From Porphyra umbilicalis (Eukaryota; Rhodophyta; Bangiophyceae; Bangiales; Bangiaceae), in the NCBI GenBank assembly GCA_002049455.2, contig KV919031.1, positions 43,925 through 107,924 of the forward strand: 64,000 nt of DNA, in the 5' to 3' direction. Below are positions 32,757 through 40,582 of the stretch, one piece after another. A model generated the notes under the pieces. It ran no database searches and had not been told where the DNA came from. It worked only from the letters and a program-made list of their open reading frames with translations. Positions within the stretch are counted from its first letter, which is position 1. Each line of letters begins with the position of its first letter. The translations under genes and the position numbers were made by a program.

Positions 32757-33066
32757 ATTTTCCTGGACTTTCGTCTGGGGTACTTATCAACATGCGCATG
32801 GGATCACACACATAACTTCTTTTTTTCTCCAGTGCACGCGCGGGAGTACTTGCGGTTGGCCCCGTGTGCACACCTTTTCGGGCGGTGCGCACTGTATCGA
32901 TCACTGCTGCGGGTCCTTTGGGCATGGTTCGGTGCGCATCATGCGTCCGGCACTTTCTGTAGCTTTTCTAGTTTGTAGCATGTCAGCCGCGGTCATACGG
33001 ACGCCGTATGTCGCTTTTCGTAGGATGTCCGGGTCAGTTGCCTCAGAATGAGGGTGGTGCGTTCAT
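32757..33066 (+). repeat. tandem host unit, copy 1, left part (interrupted)
   Basis: Closely matches 39327-39638 with few differences; shared words include GTACTTATCAACATGCGCAT and GTGCACGCGCGGGAGTACTT. It stops at the left end of the retrotransposon at 33067, and the rest of the same unit resumes at 38321. Confidence 0.9.
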
Positions 33067-33381
33067 ACCCCACGTATCTATGCTTTGATTTATCGGTTAT
33101 TGACTCCCCTTATGGGCGTCGCCGACTTGCGTGATAGTTAATAGACGGAAGACTTAGGGCGCTGGGTGATCCCCCGGGATCACCCGGAGCTGCTGGGGGT
33201 GGGGGCGCCGTTAGGGCCGCACAGGCCCTGAAGCGCTGGTGGCCACACGCCACAGCCGACGCGGTAGCCACACCGCGGCGGTGCCCTGCGCTTCCCCGCA
33301 CCCCAACACGCCATAAGAGGCGACGCCGCCGCGTCCCTCCACTGACCGCCTGGGCGCAGCACGTCCGCTGTTTTTCCGTCT
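33067..33381 (+). repeat. split direct repeat A1
   Basis: 315 bp, almost identical to A2 (37824-38137). Starts ACCCCACGTATCTATGC. Contains a perfect 22-base palindrome centred at 33174-33175 (GGGTGATCCC and its inverse). Ends in CGCTGTTTTTCCGT, which can pair with ACGGAAAACAGCG just beyond it. Confidence 0.92.
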
Positions 33382-33880
33382 ACGGAAAACAGCGTCTACC
33401 GGTCATCGGTGGGCTCGACGCGGCCCCGATCCATGTCGTCACTCCTGACGGCAGCACCCCTTCTGGGGAACGGCCTTTCGGACGCACTGTCCAGCCGTCC
33501 CGGCCCCTCGCGGGGGGCGACGGGTAATCCTTGGGTAACCCACCCAGCCCTTTGGATTTTGACAATCCTCTGGGCCCTGCTGTCCGGGCCCGCCCCCGAG
33601 GGCAAGTCCTGCGCCGGCGGTGGTCGGACGCGTCGCGGCGGCCGCGGCGGTGGTGGCGCCGACGCCGGCGGCGGGGGGGGCGGTGGCGGCGGTGGCGGAG
33701 GTCCTCCCGCGGGCGGTGGCGGCAGCGGCACCAGTTCCAGCTCTGACGGAGGCGGTGGCGACGGCGGCGACCGTCGGGCGGTAAAATAAAGCACCGAATA
33801 ACCGGGGGCGCCGCCCGGACCTTGGCCACCTGCTTCGGGTCGAACGGGCTCACGTACGCCTGCTTGTTGCGCCCGTAGTC

Positions 33881-34019
33881 TTGGTCCCAGTCCTCCTCGT
33901 AGTCTCTGTCGTCGAACTCGTCGCCGTCAGTGGCGTCGTCGCCGTCGTCGGGGTTGGGAGGACCGCCGCCGCCGCCGCCCGGAGGGCCGCCGCCGCCGCC
34001 ACCGTCGTCACCACCGCCT

Positions 34020-34060
<41 letters not shown>

Positions 34061-34620
34061 TCCGTCCCCGCTGCCGGCACCACCACCGCCGCCACCACGG
34101 CCGTCACCGCCAACGGCAGCCCCCGGCTGGCGTTCCCCGCCCCGTTTGACGTCACCGGCGACACGCGCTACGCCCGCACCCAGGCCCGCGTCGGCGGCCA
34201 GGCTGCGCACGACCTCGATTTTGTGTACAACATCTGTGCGTGGTTGCAATTCCTGTACAACCGCCTGCTCACGCACGAGCAGGCGACATCGGCGCGTGGG
34301 CGCAAGACATCGTCATTCGACAAGGACACTCGGGTGGCGCTCCATCAGCTGTTCGTCCTGGCCAGCGCGCGGTACAATTGCTGGACCTGGCCACGACCGA
34401 TGGAGCAGCTGCGGAGACTCTACGCACGATTGTCTTCCAGGACACGGACGCCGCTGTGTACTGCCCCGCGTTCGAGTTCCTGCAGACTGCCCAGACCGAG
34501 AGCTTCGTCAAGCTCGCCGCCCGCCGACACGGCGATCGGCAGGCCAGCGGCATTCGCGGCGACGCCGCGACCCCCGCGACGGCCAAGACCGGCCGAGAGG
34601 GGCGCCCCAAGGGCGCCTAG
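33881..34620 (+). pseudogene. DIRS/PAT gag-like protein, one frameshift
   Basis: Preceded by a (CCG)n/(GGC)n stretch. The first frame contains AHDLDFVYNICAWLQFLYN and YNRLLTHEQ. Near 34265 the reading jumps one frame to AGDIGAWAQDIVIRQGHSGG and continues to VFQDTDAAVYCPAFEFLQTA, ending at the TAG at 34618-34620. Helical, with no zinc knuckle. It is called gag by position before RT and by capsid-like helices. Confidence in function is limited. Confidence 0.55.
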
Positions 34621-34639
34621 ATGCACGCAGGTCCGGGCC

Positions 34640-36850
34640 TCGCCGACCCCCCGCCCATCCCGGGGGTCGGGCCCGCCCCCTCGCGTGCCGGGGGGCGTGG
34701 CTGCACCCAAGGCACGCAAGACCCGACGCCGCCCGAGCAAGTGGCAGCGTCGGCACGAGAAGGTGGTGGCCGAGGAGGACGAGGCGGCGGCGGCCGGCTC
34801 ACCTTCTTCCACCCTCCGACTCGCCGCGCGCGCGTGGGAGGCGCTGGGGGCGGGACCCTGGGTTTTGCGCACGATCCTATACGGACTGCGTATTCCCTGG
34901 GTCTCCACCCCCGCGCCCACCCGCTCGCAAGGCTACCCGCTGCCCGACGCGGAGCTCTCCTGGTGTGCCACGGAGGCAAAGCGGTGGGTGCAGGCCGGCT
35001 ACGTCCGCCGTCTAAGCAAGGCGGCAGCGGCCGGCTCGGATTGGGTATCCCCCACCTTCGTGGTGCACGGGGCAAAGGACAGGACGGTGGTAGACCTGAG
35101 GAGGATCAACAAGTTCATCGCGGCGCGGCTGTTCAAGTACCAGAGGTTGGCATGCTTCCTTGGCGGCGTGCTCCCCGACGAGCACCTCCTGTCATGGGAC
35201 GTGAAAGACGCATTTTATCACGTCCGAATTTTCCCGGCGCACCGCAAGTACTTCCAATTCGTGGTGGATGCGGGAGTGTACGAGCCCAGGGTGCTGCCGT
35301 TCGGCATGCGGCTGTCACCCTGGGCGTAGACAAAGGTGATGCGCCCAGTGGTGGCCGCGTTGCGGCTCAAGGGCTACCACGTGTTGGCGTACGTCAACGA
35401 CTTTGCAGCGACGGGGCGGGGCGAGTGGCCGTCCTCGGCGGCGTCGGCTACCTCGGGGCGGCTCGACATCTTGCAGCTGTTCAAGGACTTGGGCGTGCAG
35501 GTTCAAGCCACGAAGGGCGTCGCCGCCGGCACCACGAGGCTCCCCATCCTGGGGTTCCTCGCCGACACGCGCCGCCGGCTACTTCTCCTGCCCAAGGAGC
35601 GGCTGGAAAAGGTCGTGAACGGCGCCAAGGCACTACTCTCGGCCGCCACGGCGGGCAACCGCCCCGTGTCGGCAACGGCTCTTTGCCGCTTCACGGGCAC
35701 CGCGGTGTCGTGCGGCCTGGCAGTGCCCTCGGCGCGGTTTTACCTGCGTCGATTGTACAACGCGCAAACGCGACGCACCGGCACTGCCCGGCTGTGCCAT
35801 GGCGCGGTCAAGGACCTGGGATGGTTCTCCCGCCTCCGCCGGGAGCCCGGCGTGGGCCGCGCGCTGTGGCCGTCCACGGTGGGCGAGCTCACCACAGACG
35901 CCTCGCCCTGGGGGTGGGGGGGGCACTGGGGGGACCTGCTGCCCGCCGCCGGCTTCTTCACGATGACGCAGAGGAACCTGCACATCAACGTCAAAGAGGT
36001 GTGTGCGGTGCGGTTCTGTCAGCTCGCTTTCGGCAAGCAGCTGGCCGACAGGCTGGGCGTCTTGCGGTTGCGGGTCGACAGCCGCGTGGCGATGCACGTG
36101 GTCAACTCGTTTACCAGCCGCTCCGCCGCGCTGATGACGGAGCTGCGGAAGCTGCACAAGGTGGTGCAGCTGTTGGAGGCGTCCTGGCTGGCCTCCGTGG
36201 CCAACGCTTGGGCCGACGCCTTGTCCCGGCAAAACGACAGCGACGACTGGCGGCTGCACCCCAAGTACTACGGCCGCCTCGACGAGATGTACGGCGTCCA
36301 CACCGTGGACCGCTTCGCGTCTGCCCTCAACACGCACTGTCCGCGGTTCAACTCTCGACACCACTGCCCGGGCACAGAGGCGGTGGACACTTTCTCGGTG
36401 TCGTGGGCGGGGTCGGACAACAGCTGGGTGAACCCGCCATTTGCGCAGGCCAGCCGCGTGGTGGACAAGATCGTCGCCGAGGGCGCAAGCGCCACGGTCC
36501 TCCTGCCGGTGTGGACAGCGCAGAGCTGGTGGGCGCGCGCGGTGGAGCGCGCCAACGAGGCATGGCTGCTGCCCGAGGTGGCAGGCGTCTTCTCGTCCGG
36601 CCGCAGCAGACGGCCGGCGCCGCACCCGACATGGCGCTTGGCGGTGTTTCGCTTTGTCAGTGGAGGCGTTGCAGAAACGGACGTGCAGCGGCGCAGGCAG
36701 ATAGCGGTCGGGGCAGCTGCCCGCACACGACGCCACGCGGTGCGCTCGGGCGCCGTTGGCGCCGAGCGCAGGGCCAAGCGCTGGCACGTTCCGCCCCCGG
36801 CGGCGGCCCTGATGGAGCTTTCGCCCGCTTCCTCCGCCTTTGGTCGGTGA
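34640..36850 (+). pseudogene. DIRS/PAT reverse transcriptase-RNase H with methyltransferase-like segment
   Basis: One frame interrupted by a TAG at 35327-35329. RT motifs: DRTVVDLRRINKFI, HLLSWDVKDAFYHV with the first catalytic Asp, PFGMRLSPWA, then YHVLAYVNDFAATG, where the YVDD box is YVND. RNase H follows: TTDASPWGWGGHWG with a catalytic-type Asp, NVKEVCAVRF with Glu, and VDSRVAM with Asp. The last part has HTVDRFASALNTHCPRFNSR and WVNPPFAQASRVVDKI. NPPF is the catalytic-type motif of the adenine-methyltransferase-like domain that many DIRS-order elements carry after RNase H. The end overlaps the recombinase frame. Confidence 0.88.
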
Positions 36851-37761
36851 GGGCTTCCACAGCCGACCGCTACGGTGGCCAGTGGGATGCTTTTGCGGCT
36901 TACTGCCGTGGCCGCGGCCGGTGATCTCTGCCCGCCACTACCGCCACCATTGTCGAGTACGTCGGCCACCAGTGGCGCTGCGGCAACCTGGTGGCCGCGT
37001 CCCTCAAGCCTATTTTGGCAGCGGTGCGGAAGAGGCACCTGGGGGCCGGGTACGGCAACCCATGCGACGCCGCCGCGGTGAGGGAGGCAAAGGCCGGCTT
37101 CCGCCGGGCGGGCCTGCTACTGCGGGCGCAGACCCAGCCGAATCGCATCCCACTGCCGTCGGCGGTCGCTTAGCGGTTGGCAATGCTGGCGTGCTACTCC
37201 CCCAAGATTTTTCGCCACCGCTTGACGACGGTGGTTTTACAATTTTGGTGGATGCGGCGCGCCGGCGACATCACCGGCCTCTGCGTCGCCGACGTGCAGC
37301 TGCCCGCAGATGGCCGCACATGCTACCAAGTACCTGACCACAAGACCGTCCCCCGTGACGGGCTGATCGCCCGCACCTTACCCCCGGCGCACGACGGTGC
37401 GTACGACGTGCCGCGGCAGCTGCTGGCCCGCCTGTTGGCCGACCTCCGCTCGGCCGGGGCCTCGGCAGGCACCCGCCTCTTCACCAGCTGCGCCGCCCGC
37501 GCGGCCAGCGGCAACGTCACGGGCTGGCTCCGAGACGGGCTTGTCAGGCTTGGCGTGACCGCTCCGGTTGGCACCATCTACTCCTCCCACTCGCTCAAGA
37601 AGGGCGGCGCGACGGCGGCCAACGCCGCCGGCGTGCCACGGGATGCCATTGCAGAGCTGGCCAACACGACGGAACGGACGCTGGCGGAGACCTACATCTC
37701 CACCCTCGTCGTGCCGTCATGGTATGACCGGTATTTTTTCGGGCGATTGCTTCCTGCGTGA
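36840..37761 (+). pseudogene. tyrosine recombinase of the DIRS/PAT element
   Basis: One frame with two in-frame stops (TGA at 36922-36924 and TAG at 37171-37173). The N-terminal SAM-like part includes ASTADRYGGQWDAFAAYC. The catalytic part shows the first Arg in WWMRRAGDITGL, the HSLKKGGATAANAAGVP box (His-x-x-Lys where Arg is usual), and the nucleophile region LAETYISTLV. Length and motif spacing fit the lambda-integrase-type recombinase that replaces a DDE integrase in DIRS-order elements. Confidence 0.88.
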
Positions 37762-37797
37762 CCCGCCGGCGAGCGCACGCCCGTACTCGATTGGGTT

Positions 37798-37828
37798 GGC
37801 ATACGCGGCTCCTCTTTGTGTAACCCCA
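37798..37828 (+). repeat. split direct repeat B1
   Basis: GGCATACGCGGCTCCTCTTT followed by GTGTAACCCC. It matches B2 at 38291-38320 with one mismatch and overlaps the start of A2 at ACCCC. Confidence 0.9.
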
Positions 37829-38137
37829 CGTATCTATGCTTTGATTTATCGGTTATTGACTCCCCTTATGGGCGTCGCCGACTTGCGTGATAGTTAATAG
37901 ACGGAAGACTTAGGGCGCTGGGTGATCCCCAGGGATCACCCGGAGCTGCTGGGGGTGGGGGCGCCGTTAGGGCCGCACAGGCCCTGAAGCGCTGGTGGCC
38001 ACACGCCACAGCCGACGCGGTAGCCACACCGCGGCGGTGCCCTGCGCTTCCCCGCACCCCAACACGCCATAAGAGGAGACGCCGCCGCGTCCCTCCACTG
38101 ACCGCCTGGGCGCAGCACGTCCGCTGTTTTTCCGTCT
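37824..38137 (+). repeat. split direct repeat A2
   Basis: Near-identical direct copy of A1; differences include one base within the central palindrome and one at CATAAGAGG(C/A)GACG. Confidence 0.92.
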
Positions 38138-38221
38138 CCCGCCCACCTCCCTGGTGGATTCCACGTGTTGTGCGCCACGTGCACAACCGTTGTTTTTCGG
38201 ACCGACTAACGTCTGTCCGTT

Positions 38222-38241
38222 TGTGTGTGTGTGTGTGTGTG
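38222..38241 (+). repeat. (GT)n microsatellite between A2 and B2
   Basis: About ten GT units. Confidence 0.85.
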
Positions 38242-38290
38242 TTTTCTTTTTCTTTTACTCGGGGCTCAATTAGTAAATCAACACGTCTGT

Positions 38291-38320
38291 GGCATACGCG
38301 GCTCCTCTTTGGGTAACCCC
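38291..38320 (+). repeat. split direct repeat B2 (right end of element)
   Basis: Matches B1 with one mismatch. Ends in AACCCC, joining host sequence CGGAAACGTCGATCTGG at 38321. Confidence 0.9.
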
Positions 38321-39326
38321 CGGAAACGTCGATCTGGTCAGACGCGTGGACTGCATTTTGTGGTGAAGTCCGGCGATGGCGCTCCACGGGACAACCAAGG
38401 CACATTCTGTTCGAAGTTTCAAGCAGACGCTCGCGACCCATCGTCCTGGAGGAGAGGGCTCCCGGACGGCCGGCGGGAGCTGCCGACGGCCGCACCACCG
38501 CAGTCGTCGGGGTCACCACCGCGGCGGCCGCACACGCCCGACACACCCCCCGCGCGCGCGTCGGTGCGCGACCGCCCGCGACCAACACAGCCGGCGCGCG
38601 GTCGGCCGCCGCGCCGACGAGGCGACCAGCCCCACCCACCCCGCCGCGCGCGCGCGTGGGCCTCCCCGCCGGCGACCGCACCGCGCGTCGCGCGCGATGT
38701 GGCATGGTCCGAGGCGCCGCCGCCCCCGCGCCGACGCGGCGGCAGCGTTGACGGCGGCCCCGCCCGTTGTGGTGCCCCCCCACTCCTCGCCCACGCCACT
38801 GTCTGACGGGGGACGAGCTCCGCCGCAGTTGGGAGCGGGGAAGGGCGCTGGCAGCGCCACCGCCGCCTCCCCTGCCGCGGCTGCCGCCGCTGTCGCGCCC
38901 GCCATCGCCGCGACTGCGACGGGTGGTGGCTGCGACGGCGGCGGCGGCGGCGGCGGGCTGTGGTCCATGGCCCCACCGTCGCCGCTGCCGCCGCTAGCGG
39001 GCGTGCGCACCGCCGCCGACGCGCCGGCGGGGGGCGGCGGCGCGGAGTTCGACGGCGGGCTGCCTGCGGCAGCAGCGGCGCCGCCCAACTGCCGCGGCCG
39101 TGGCGACCGGGACGGGTGCGACGGCAGGCCGGCGGCGGTGTGCACGTCTGGAGGTTCGAGGGTATTTGTCTGCTTATGGCTGGGGGGGGAGGCGCGGCGG
39201 TGATGGCGGCGGCGTGGGCGGTGGCGGCGGCGGTGCTTGTTGGCGGTGGCTTGTTTGCCGAGGATGCGCGGCCGCGCGAGGGTGGTGGTTCGCGTCGGCT
39301 GGTCGTCGGCGGCTGCTTTGCACGTT
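38321..39326 (+). repeat. tandem host unit, copy 1, right part
   Basis: Closely matches 39644-40582, apart from 72 bases present here and absent in copy 2 near 38,650-38,730, plus single-base differences. A plus-strand frame from the ATG at 38376 (MALHGTTKAHSVRSFKQTLA) stays open across most of it in both copies. Whether it is translated is unknown; the composition (Ala/Gly/Arg/Pro) is that of GC-rich DNA. Confidence 0.9.
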
Positions 39327-40582
39327 TTATTTCCCTGAACTTTAGTCTAGGGTACTTATCAACATGCGCATGGGGTTACACACATAACTTTTTTTTTTCT
39401 CCAGTGCACGCGCGGGAGTACTTGCGGTTGGCCCCGTGTGCACACCTTTTCGGGCGGTGCGCACTGTATCGATCACTGCTGCGGGTCCTTTGGGCATGGT
39501 TCGGTGCACAACATGTGTCCAGCACTTTCTGTAGCTTTTCTAGTTTGTAGCATGTCAGCCGCGGTCATACGGACGCCGTACGTCGCTTTTCGTAGGATGT
39601 CCGGGTCAGTTGCCTCAGAATGAGGGTGGTGCGTTCAGACCCCCAGAAACGTCGATCTGGTCAGACGCGTGGACTGTATTTTGCGGTGAAGTCCGGCGAT
39701 GGCGCTCCACGGGACAACCAAGGCACATTCTGTTCGAAGTTTCAAGCAGACGCTCGCGACCCATCGTTCTGGAGGAGAGGGCTCCCGGACGGCCGGCGGG
39801 AGCTGCCGACGGCCGCACCACCGCAGTCGTCGGGGTCACCACCGCGGCGGCCGCACACGCCCGGCACGCCCCCCGCGCGCGCGTCGGTGCGCGACCGCCC
39901 GCGACCAACATAGCCGGCGCGCGGTCGGCCGTCGCGCCGACGAGGCGGCCAACCCCACCCACCCCCCCGCGCGCCCCCGCACCGACGCGGCGGCAGCGTT
40001 GACGGCGGCCCCGCCCGTTGCGATGCCCCCCCACTCCTCGCCCCCGCCACTGTCTGACGGGGGACGAGCTCCGCCGACGTTGGGAGCGGGGAAGGGCGCC
40101 GTCAGCGCCACCGCCGCCTCCCCTGCCGCGGCTGCCGCCGCTGTCGCGCCCGCCACCGCCGCGACTGCGACGGGTGGTGGCTGCGACGGCGGCGGCGGCG
40201 GCGGCGGGCTGTGGTCCATGGCCCCACCGTCGCCGCTGCCGCCGCTAGCGGGCGTGCGCACCGCCGCCGACGCGCCGGCGGGGGGCGGCGGCGCGGAGTT
40301 CGACGGCGGGCTGCCTGCGGCAGCGGCGGCGGCGCCCAACGGCCGCGGCCGTGGCGACCGGGACGGGTGCGACGGCAGGCCGGCGGCGGTGTGCACGTCT
40401 GGAGGTTCGAGGGTATTTGTCTGCTTGTGGCTGGGGGGGGGAGGCGCGGCGGTGATGGCGGCGGCGTGGGCGGCGGCGGCGGCGGCGGTGCTTGTTGGCG
40501 GTGGCTTGTTTGCCGAGGATGCGCGGCCGCGCGAGGGGGGTGGTTCGCGTGGGCTGGTCGTCGGCGGCTGCTTTGCACGTTG
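39327..40582 (+). repeat. tandem host unit, copy 2 (contains the empty insertion site)
   Basis: Begins directly where copy 1 ends, so the copies are head to tail. It contains the uninterrupted target GTTCAGACCCCCAGAAACG at about 39634-39650, corresponding to the two host edges of the retrotransposon. The frame starting at the ATG at 39699 matches that of copy 1, with an in-frame 24-codon deletion. It ends about 245 bases before the NUP155 start, so it may carry part of that gene's promoter. Confidence 0.9.

Follow-up and report, generated by a model that had tools for sequence, protein, structure and literature searches.

Within the DIRS order of retrotransposons, PAT elements are defined by a methyltransferase (MT) domain and split direct repeats, and the Toc3 type among them by the lack of a zinc finger and by a tyrosine recombinase (YR) whose direction is unlike that in Kangaroo (PMC4157794; this and the other published sources are cited here from excerpts). 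The repeat pattern A1-B1-A2-B2 has been described in VIPER, Ngaro and PAT-like elements (PMC6681497). For Ngaro, this pattern and solo AB copies are reported in Cafeteria (PMC8547959), and PAT-like elements are listed in a brown alga (PMC12477816). An element of this kind is present in the red alga Porphyra umbilicalis, at positions 33067-38320 of a 64,000-nucleotide stretch of contig KV919031.1 (C271:43925-107924), termed here the window. The window is a contig end with a G + C content of 67%; the genome analysed comprises 83.8 Mb in 665 contigs. The phycobilisome linker family PF00427 is matched 12 times in this genome, four times on contig C665, which is probably the plastid, and eight times on other contigs; among 14 control genomes it is matched in Synechococcus elongatus alone, in keeping with a red-algal host. 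The sequence at 33067-38320 is very probably that of a PAT-like member of the DIRS order, now decayed and probably nuclear, that was inserted in the manner of the DIRS/PAT circle-junction model.

The element displays the characteristics of the DIRS order, i.e., a reverse transcriptase (RT), a YR instead of an integrase and, at three sites, no target site duplication, together with those of PAT, an MT domain and split direct repeats A1-B1-A2-B2. It is structurally a Toc3-like member of PAT, a label given by structure and not by RT phylogeny. With PAT/Toc3-like elements of algae it shares split direct repeats, RT and MT in pol, a YR on the same strand and a Gag without CCHC (PMC4157794). It may differ from Toc3 in its YR, which has HxxK and no box-III His/Trp. 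The Gag zinc finger of Pat1-like elements was not found (the CCHC type was looked for). Kangaroo of Volvox also comes from an alga and has split direct repeats, an MT domain and no zinc finger, but its YR is inverted and its internal repeats lie between MT and YR (PMC4157794), whereas YR and pol are on the same strand in the window copy and in a second copy, L009, and the B1/A2 repeats are downstream of the YR. DIRS1-like elements have the same integration model, whereby a short circular junction recombines with identical genomic sequence and no target duplication results, but they have inverted terminal repeats with internal complementary regions, a 3-bp junction and mostly NTT ends (PMC3266345); the repeats found here are direct and the junction is AACCCC. 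Ngaro has the same layout of A1-[open reading frames]-B1A2-B2 and the same solo AB copies (PMC8547959; compare the solo copy L071 on C220, below) but no MT domain (PMC4157794), and the Porphyra element has one, of the Dam type.

Elements of this kind are already known, and the reading of empty sites is not claimed to be new for PAT. In print, as far as the excerpts go, DIRS-order integration is a model drawn from the repeats. In Porphyra, multicopy paralogues preserve the state of the target before insertion for three independent insertions, and both the target core and the absent duplication can be stated base by base. No title among the matches listed in literature searches with red-algal and DIRS terms concerns PAT elements in red algae, and a search on empty sites in DIRS elements matched, by title, just a paper on elements without long terminal repeats.

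Repeats and termini of the element

The anatomy of the element is A1-[gag, RT-MT, YR]-B1A2-B2, with all four repeats on the plus strand. The terminal repeat A1 (33067-33381) starts with the core ACCCC at 33067-33071. The internal repeats B1 (37797-37827) and A2 (37823-38137) overlap by the core at 37823-37827, which forms the final five bases of B1, and their joint reads GTGTA-ACCCC-ACGTATC. The terminal repeat B2 (38290-38320) has the core at its end, at 38316-38320. The preliminary description of this DNA had proposed complete split direct repeats, and alignment bears this out: A1 and A2 differ at two of 315 positions (33175 and 33321), and B1 and B2 at one of 31.

Besides the window copy, two full copies are found in the genome, L009 on C18 (96.8% identity) and L010 on C186 (93.8%; 4.2-kb body compared). 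The left end, the B1/A2 joint and the right end are all identical in the three copies, and the flanks are unrelated. The boundaries of the window element are therefore real, and the check for other copies with different termini favors the preliminary delimitation. The first 300 bases of A1 have eight matches in the genome. Six are in these three copies; the remaining two are a shortened A repeat on C182 (L011) and a distant partial A repeat on C31 (L012). The C182 match was rejected as an insertion site, as its A repeat is shortened on both sides and offers no readable junction.

The complete A1-B1-A2-B2 set is displayed by the window copy, L009 and L010 and also by the relatives L045 and L049. 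Four repeats are present in L047, where the core is missing from the left end; A1 is shortened at the 5′ side in L046, and the stretch fetched for L048 showed no A1. The recombinases of L045-L049 are 57-63% identical to that of the window family. In these relatives the B1/A2 joint is AACCCC-TCCGTAT (L045, L047, L048 and L049) or AGCCCC-TCCGTAT (L046), compared with AACCCC-ACGTATC in the window family.

Empty target copies and joins at seven insertions

The element interrupts a host repeat unit on the plus strand. The left part of the occupied unit, 32757-33066, ends in TTCAT, and the right part, 38321-39326, starts with GGAAACG, as in all 11 other members read. Directly adjacent is an unoccupied copy (39327-40582, plus strand) with the core ACCCCC at 39639-39644. 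The flanks of the element match this neighbor in four ungapped blocks at 88-97%: 32757-33056 is 96% identical to 39329-39628, 38316-38615 and 38721-39020 are 97% identical to the neighbor, and 39177-39329 is 88% identical. A 374-base piece of the neighbor has at least 41 matches in the genome including itself, of which 40 are nearly full length and the other covers 61 bases; since 40 out of 144 candidates were scored, the true copy number is probably higher. All 11 other members read have the empty site TTCAG-ACCCCC-GGAAACG (ACCCCCGGAAACG; also given as TTCAGACCCCCGGAAACG). The neighbor alone deviates (ACCCCCAGAAACG), with AGAAACG after the core, a private substitution by the junction. As the occupied site keeps GGAAACG on its right, the other members are a better empty reference than the neighbor. 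The flanks match these empty members at the exact join, and the earlier claim that both junctions can be read at base level stands.

Seven insertions were examined, those of the window, L009, L010, L045, L049, C160 and L071, a small set that was not randomly drawn. Clear multicopy empty paralogues were found for three of the seven (window, L009 and L049), so readable empty sites are not as rare in this genome as had been supposed. When the flanks of L009 are joined, each of the 40 scored matches (of 119 candidates) crosses the join, and 36 cover 318 or more of the 320 bases; the empty site is GTCGGAACCCGCTTTC in all four members fetched. For L049, 17 of 39 matches cross the join with 318 or more of the 320 bases covered, and the four members fetched all read GTGCGAACCTTCTGAG. 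The three sites gained the element and exactly one core; apart from one base substitution, there was neither duplication nor loss. Target and joint have ACCCC in common in the window, AACCC at L009 and AACC at L049. A different copy of the repeat that houses L049 carries an insertion of ∼1.1 kb (C2:429089-430521) within a few bases of the same target position, with a flank-match overlap of 8 bases.

At the other insertions, overlap of the flanks suggests shared bases of ACCC (L010), AC (L045) and AACC (C160, and the solo AB copy L071). Among 200,000 random window positions and with a fixed alignment, AC stands at this place in 5.8% and a shared run of at least four in 0.7%; when the element cut point is left free within AACCCC, a run of at least four occurs at 12% of random positions. 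All three paralogue-proven sites have shared runs of 4-5. The right end is GTAAC in 10 of the 11 read (window, L009, L010, L045-L049, L071 and C160), the remaining one, L072, being GAAAC. The A before the C run is kept at 11 of 15 left ends (window, L009, L010, L045, L049, L068, L069, L071, L073, L074 and C160), with L074 having CTTC for the C run itself. This count omits L046, where A1 is shortened, L048, where no A1 was found, and L070, of which only a B1/A2 joint was seen.

Recombinase, integration and rival explanations

The recombinase region of the window copy is at 36851-37761 (plus strand, frame 1; left limit approximate). A YR profile was made from 16 homologues, which are the window copy (L025) and 15 genome loci, out of 20 loci fetched (L025-L044); left out were L034, which is partial, L035 and L042, two pieces of one frame-broken copy, and L039, which has an in-frame stop. 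The profile matches Cre with whole-sequence E values of 1.4e-4 to 1e-3 for the best entries and aligns to the catalytic arginine, lysine, HxxR and tyrosine positions of Cre. RVT_1 is matched by L009 with 51.7 bits and by L045 with 49.3 bits (cut-off 29.6). Together with the repeats and the MT domain, these matches uphold the initial assignment to PAT-like YR retrotransposons.

Of interest is the catalytic set of the window clade. At the HxxR position all nine aligned members have HSxK, and the box-III His/Trp stretch is shortened, with His and Trp missing. HSLK is also found in L034, L035 and L042, outside the alignment; L039 has HS, followed by its stop. The other recombinase lineage in the genome displays Y for H in seven of seven members, R in six of seven, and GHS or WHS in seven of seven. 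In DIRS1-like elements the HSTR motif is variable and is SDLK in one (PMC3266345); lysine at the HxxR position is therefore not unprecedented, as far as that excerpt shows. The altered positions of this clade represent a concrete enzyme question. Recombinase matches in the whole genome number 76, several being pieces of one copy or one array. As there are 76 matches, and three of seven insertions have clear empty copies, the genome could serve a statistical study of target choice in a little-known order of retrotransposons.

Integration is likely to have proceeded as follows. An RNA copy of the element would be reverse transcribed, with the internal B1-A2 joint keeping what is required to complete the two ends. 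A circle whose B/A junction is a joint of the GTGTAACCCCACG type would then form, and the YR of the element would exchange strands between the AACCCC core of the circle junction and a short matching host sequence. The product would have the core at both ends, with no target duplication and no loss. The conservative joins at the three sites with known paralogues have this form; the RNA step, the circle and the strand-exchange chemistry are assumed by analogy with the published DIRS/PAT model.

Several observations weigh against the classification or against this course of insertion. By itself, the 195-amino-acid YR stretch of the window copy has no useful match in Pfam or PDB and no Pfam YR domain. 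The per-domain E values in three Cre alignments are 0.014, 0.015, 0.54 and 7.9, and PF00589 is matched weakly by seven of the 16 homologues (best E 0.0025). At position 33066, directly ahead of the left core, T is found in the occupied site and G in all 12 empty copies, the neighbor included; the T is likely a later ordinary substitution. At L010, the site is spanned by 15 of 40 matches with identities of 73-78%, and CATCC takes the place of ACCC in the four that were fetched; these paralogues were rejected as a target reference, being too diverged. At L045, the flank has paralogues on one side, and a single long match of 82% (C7) runs across the site with its left half aligned via G-rich filler only. 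The sites of C160 and L071 are in unique sequence, with no empty paralogue in the genome. The joined flanks of C160 form one open frame of 143 codons; however, among random stretches of 429 bases, 39% have at least one open frame, and the C160 frame stays open when 2 or 3 bases at the join are removed, although not when 1 or 4 are. By the random-stretch control this is weak support for a clean join, and it was dropped. Finally, the left ends of L047, L072, L075 and L076 do not have the A before the C run.

The layout A1-[open reading frames]-B1A2-B2, with the internal repeats downstream of the recombinase, is that of Ngaro (excerpts of PMC4157794 and PMC8547959), and a Ngaro-like element would have such split direct repeats without a methyltransferase. 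This is very improbable and largely refuted by the MT domain: PF05869 (Dam methyltransferase), at 36230-36568 on the plus strand of the window, scores 43.8 bits, and 44.5 and 43.5 bits in L009 and L045, all above the cut-off of 28.1. Little credence is also given to end-joining of the cDNA by chance microhomology instead of site-specific recombination. The shared runs are short (2-5 bases), 12% of random sites have at least four bases in common when the cut point is free, and the core is missing from some old left ends. However, the shared run always involves identical element positions (A, then C of AACCCC), copies with unrelated flanks have exact ends, and there is no loss at the three sites whose empty state is known.

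There is an equally slim chance, as for Ngaro, that the element was misjoined into the tandem repeat during assembly, or that an assembly error lies behind an inverted segment of gag described below. The host unit is a high-copy repeat and the segment lies among GC-rich inverted repeats, but the same element ends occur on three contigs and the flanks meet the repeat exactly where 12 empty members carry ACCCCC, although this argument does not cover the inversion. Less improbable, while still unlikely, is the proposal in the preliminary description that the neighbor preserves the own empty site of the element, which would make it a true sister of the occupied unit formed by tandem duplication. 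The two units are directly adjacent and closely alike (the 88-97% noted above). Other members of the repeat are about equally similar, however. Over ∼600 bases of the unit, and in a comparison with 11 of the other members (which number at least 39), the left flank has 11 mismatches in 304 bases with the neighbor and 10-14 with the other members; the right flank has seven in 298 with the neighbor and 5-15 with the others, the value of 5 being from L024, of which only 157 of 300 bases are aligned. The neighbor lies within the range of the 11 others, it has its private substitution, and at least 40 near-full-length copies exist. Judged from sequence comparison, the unit 39327-40582 is one unoccupied paralogue of a multicopy repeat and probably not the element's own empty site.

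Coding content, decay and derived copies

In L009, the frames encode a Gag of 422 amino acids, a pol product of 883 amino acids with RT and Dam domains, and a product of 676 amino acids that ends in the recombinase. In the window copy, two gag remnants in frame 1 (33346-33789 and 34150-34620, plus strand) match the 422-amino-acid frame of L009. Between them, ∼0.35 kb of gag is inverted relative to the other copies: on the minus strand, 33762-34125 matches L009 and 33771-34125 matches L010 (blastn). The Gag motif lies on the minus strand of the window copy, and L009, L010 and L049 have it on the plus strand. It is weak on the plus strand in L045 and L046 (E 0.14), covers 15 residues at E 1.0 in L047, and nothing usable was found in L048. 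The inverted segment is situated amid GC-rich inverted repeats and might represent a natural inversion or an assembly error.

The pol region of the window copy (33785-36850, plus strand, frame 2) consists of the open stretches 33785-35329 and 35330-36850, with the true start of pol within the first. RVT_1 at 35174-35320 (plus strand) has 24.3 bits, which is under the cut-off, and the in-frame stop at 35327-35329 is open in L009. The RT motif is YVND, compared with YVDD in L009 and L010. The recombinase region has stops at 36922-36924 and 37171-37173, followed by an open C-terminal stretch of 195 codons (37174-37761, plus strand); the 676-amino-acid frame of L009 is continuous over this part. 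From its sequence, with three in-frame stops, YVND and the inverted gag segment, the window copy is broken and would not be capable of autonomous movement now.

A search for a CCHC zinc finger found none in the Gag of L009, L045 and L049, and none in any of the six frames of these three copies and of the window copy. Between RT and MT, where the published layout leads one to expect an RNase H, there is no match to an RNase H family, only a TDAS-type motif, and Pfam detects no integrase core in L009 and L045 (six open frames). The Rfam and tRNA scans found nothing in the window. The MT motif is NPPF in the window, L009 and L048, TPPF in L010, FPPF in L045 and L046, CPPF in L047 and YPPF in L049; because of this variation, the sister family may not need methyltransferase activity.

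A derived form is found at C160:10100-14000 (L077), in unique sequence. It is a dimer, arranged in tandem, of a PAT element with an internal deletion, and retains A1, most of gag, the YR tail and two B1/A2 joints in the order A1-gag part-YR tail-B1A2-gag part-YR tail-B1A2-B2. The two units, of 1,486 and 1,485 bases, are apart by one substitution and one indel. The dimer fits integration of a circle into a B1/A2 joint; unequal crossing-over between A1 and A2 yields the same product. It can be proposed, tentatively and with more doubt than confidence, that the YR of the window clade, with its reduced catalytic set (R, K, HxxK and Y; no box-III His/Trp), integrates circles via 2-5 bases at AACCCC, and that the internal B1/A2 joint, which duplicates the circle junction, acts as a landing site that yields tandem elements such as this dimer.

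Two other arrangements were noted. The solo AB copy L071 (C220:76560-77380) is ∼502 bases long and runs from the A repeat to the B end with no coding part. L078 (C201:71801-79200), of another DIRS family, is an array in which a 1,191-base unit with a YR tail and a B1-A2-B2-like region is repeated ∼5.5 times in tandem; its 35-base repeats are spaced alternately 446 and ∼745 bases apart. The B repeats of distinct families (window, L046 and L078) start with TGGCAT(A/C)C, and L048 has TGGCACAC; this common start suggests a putative shared functional site at the beginning of B.

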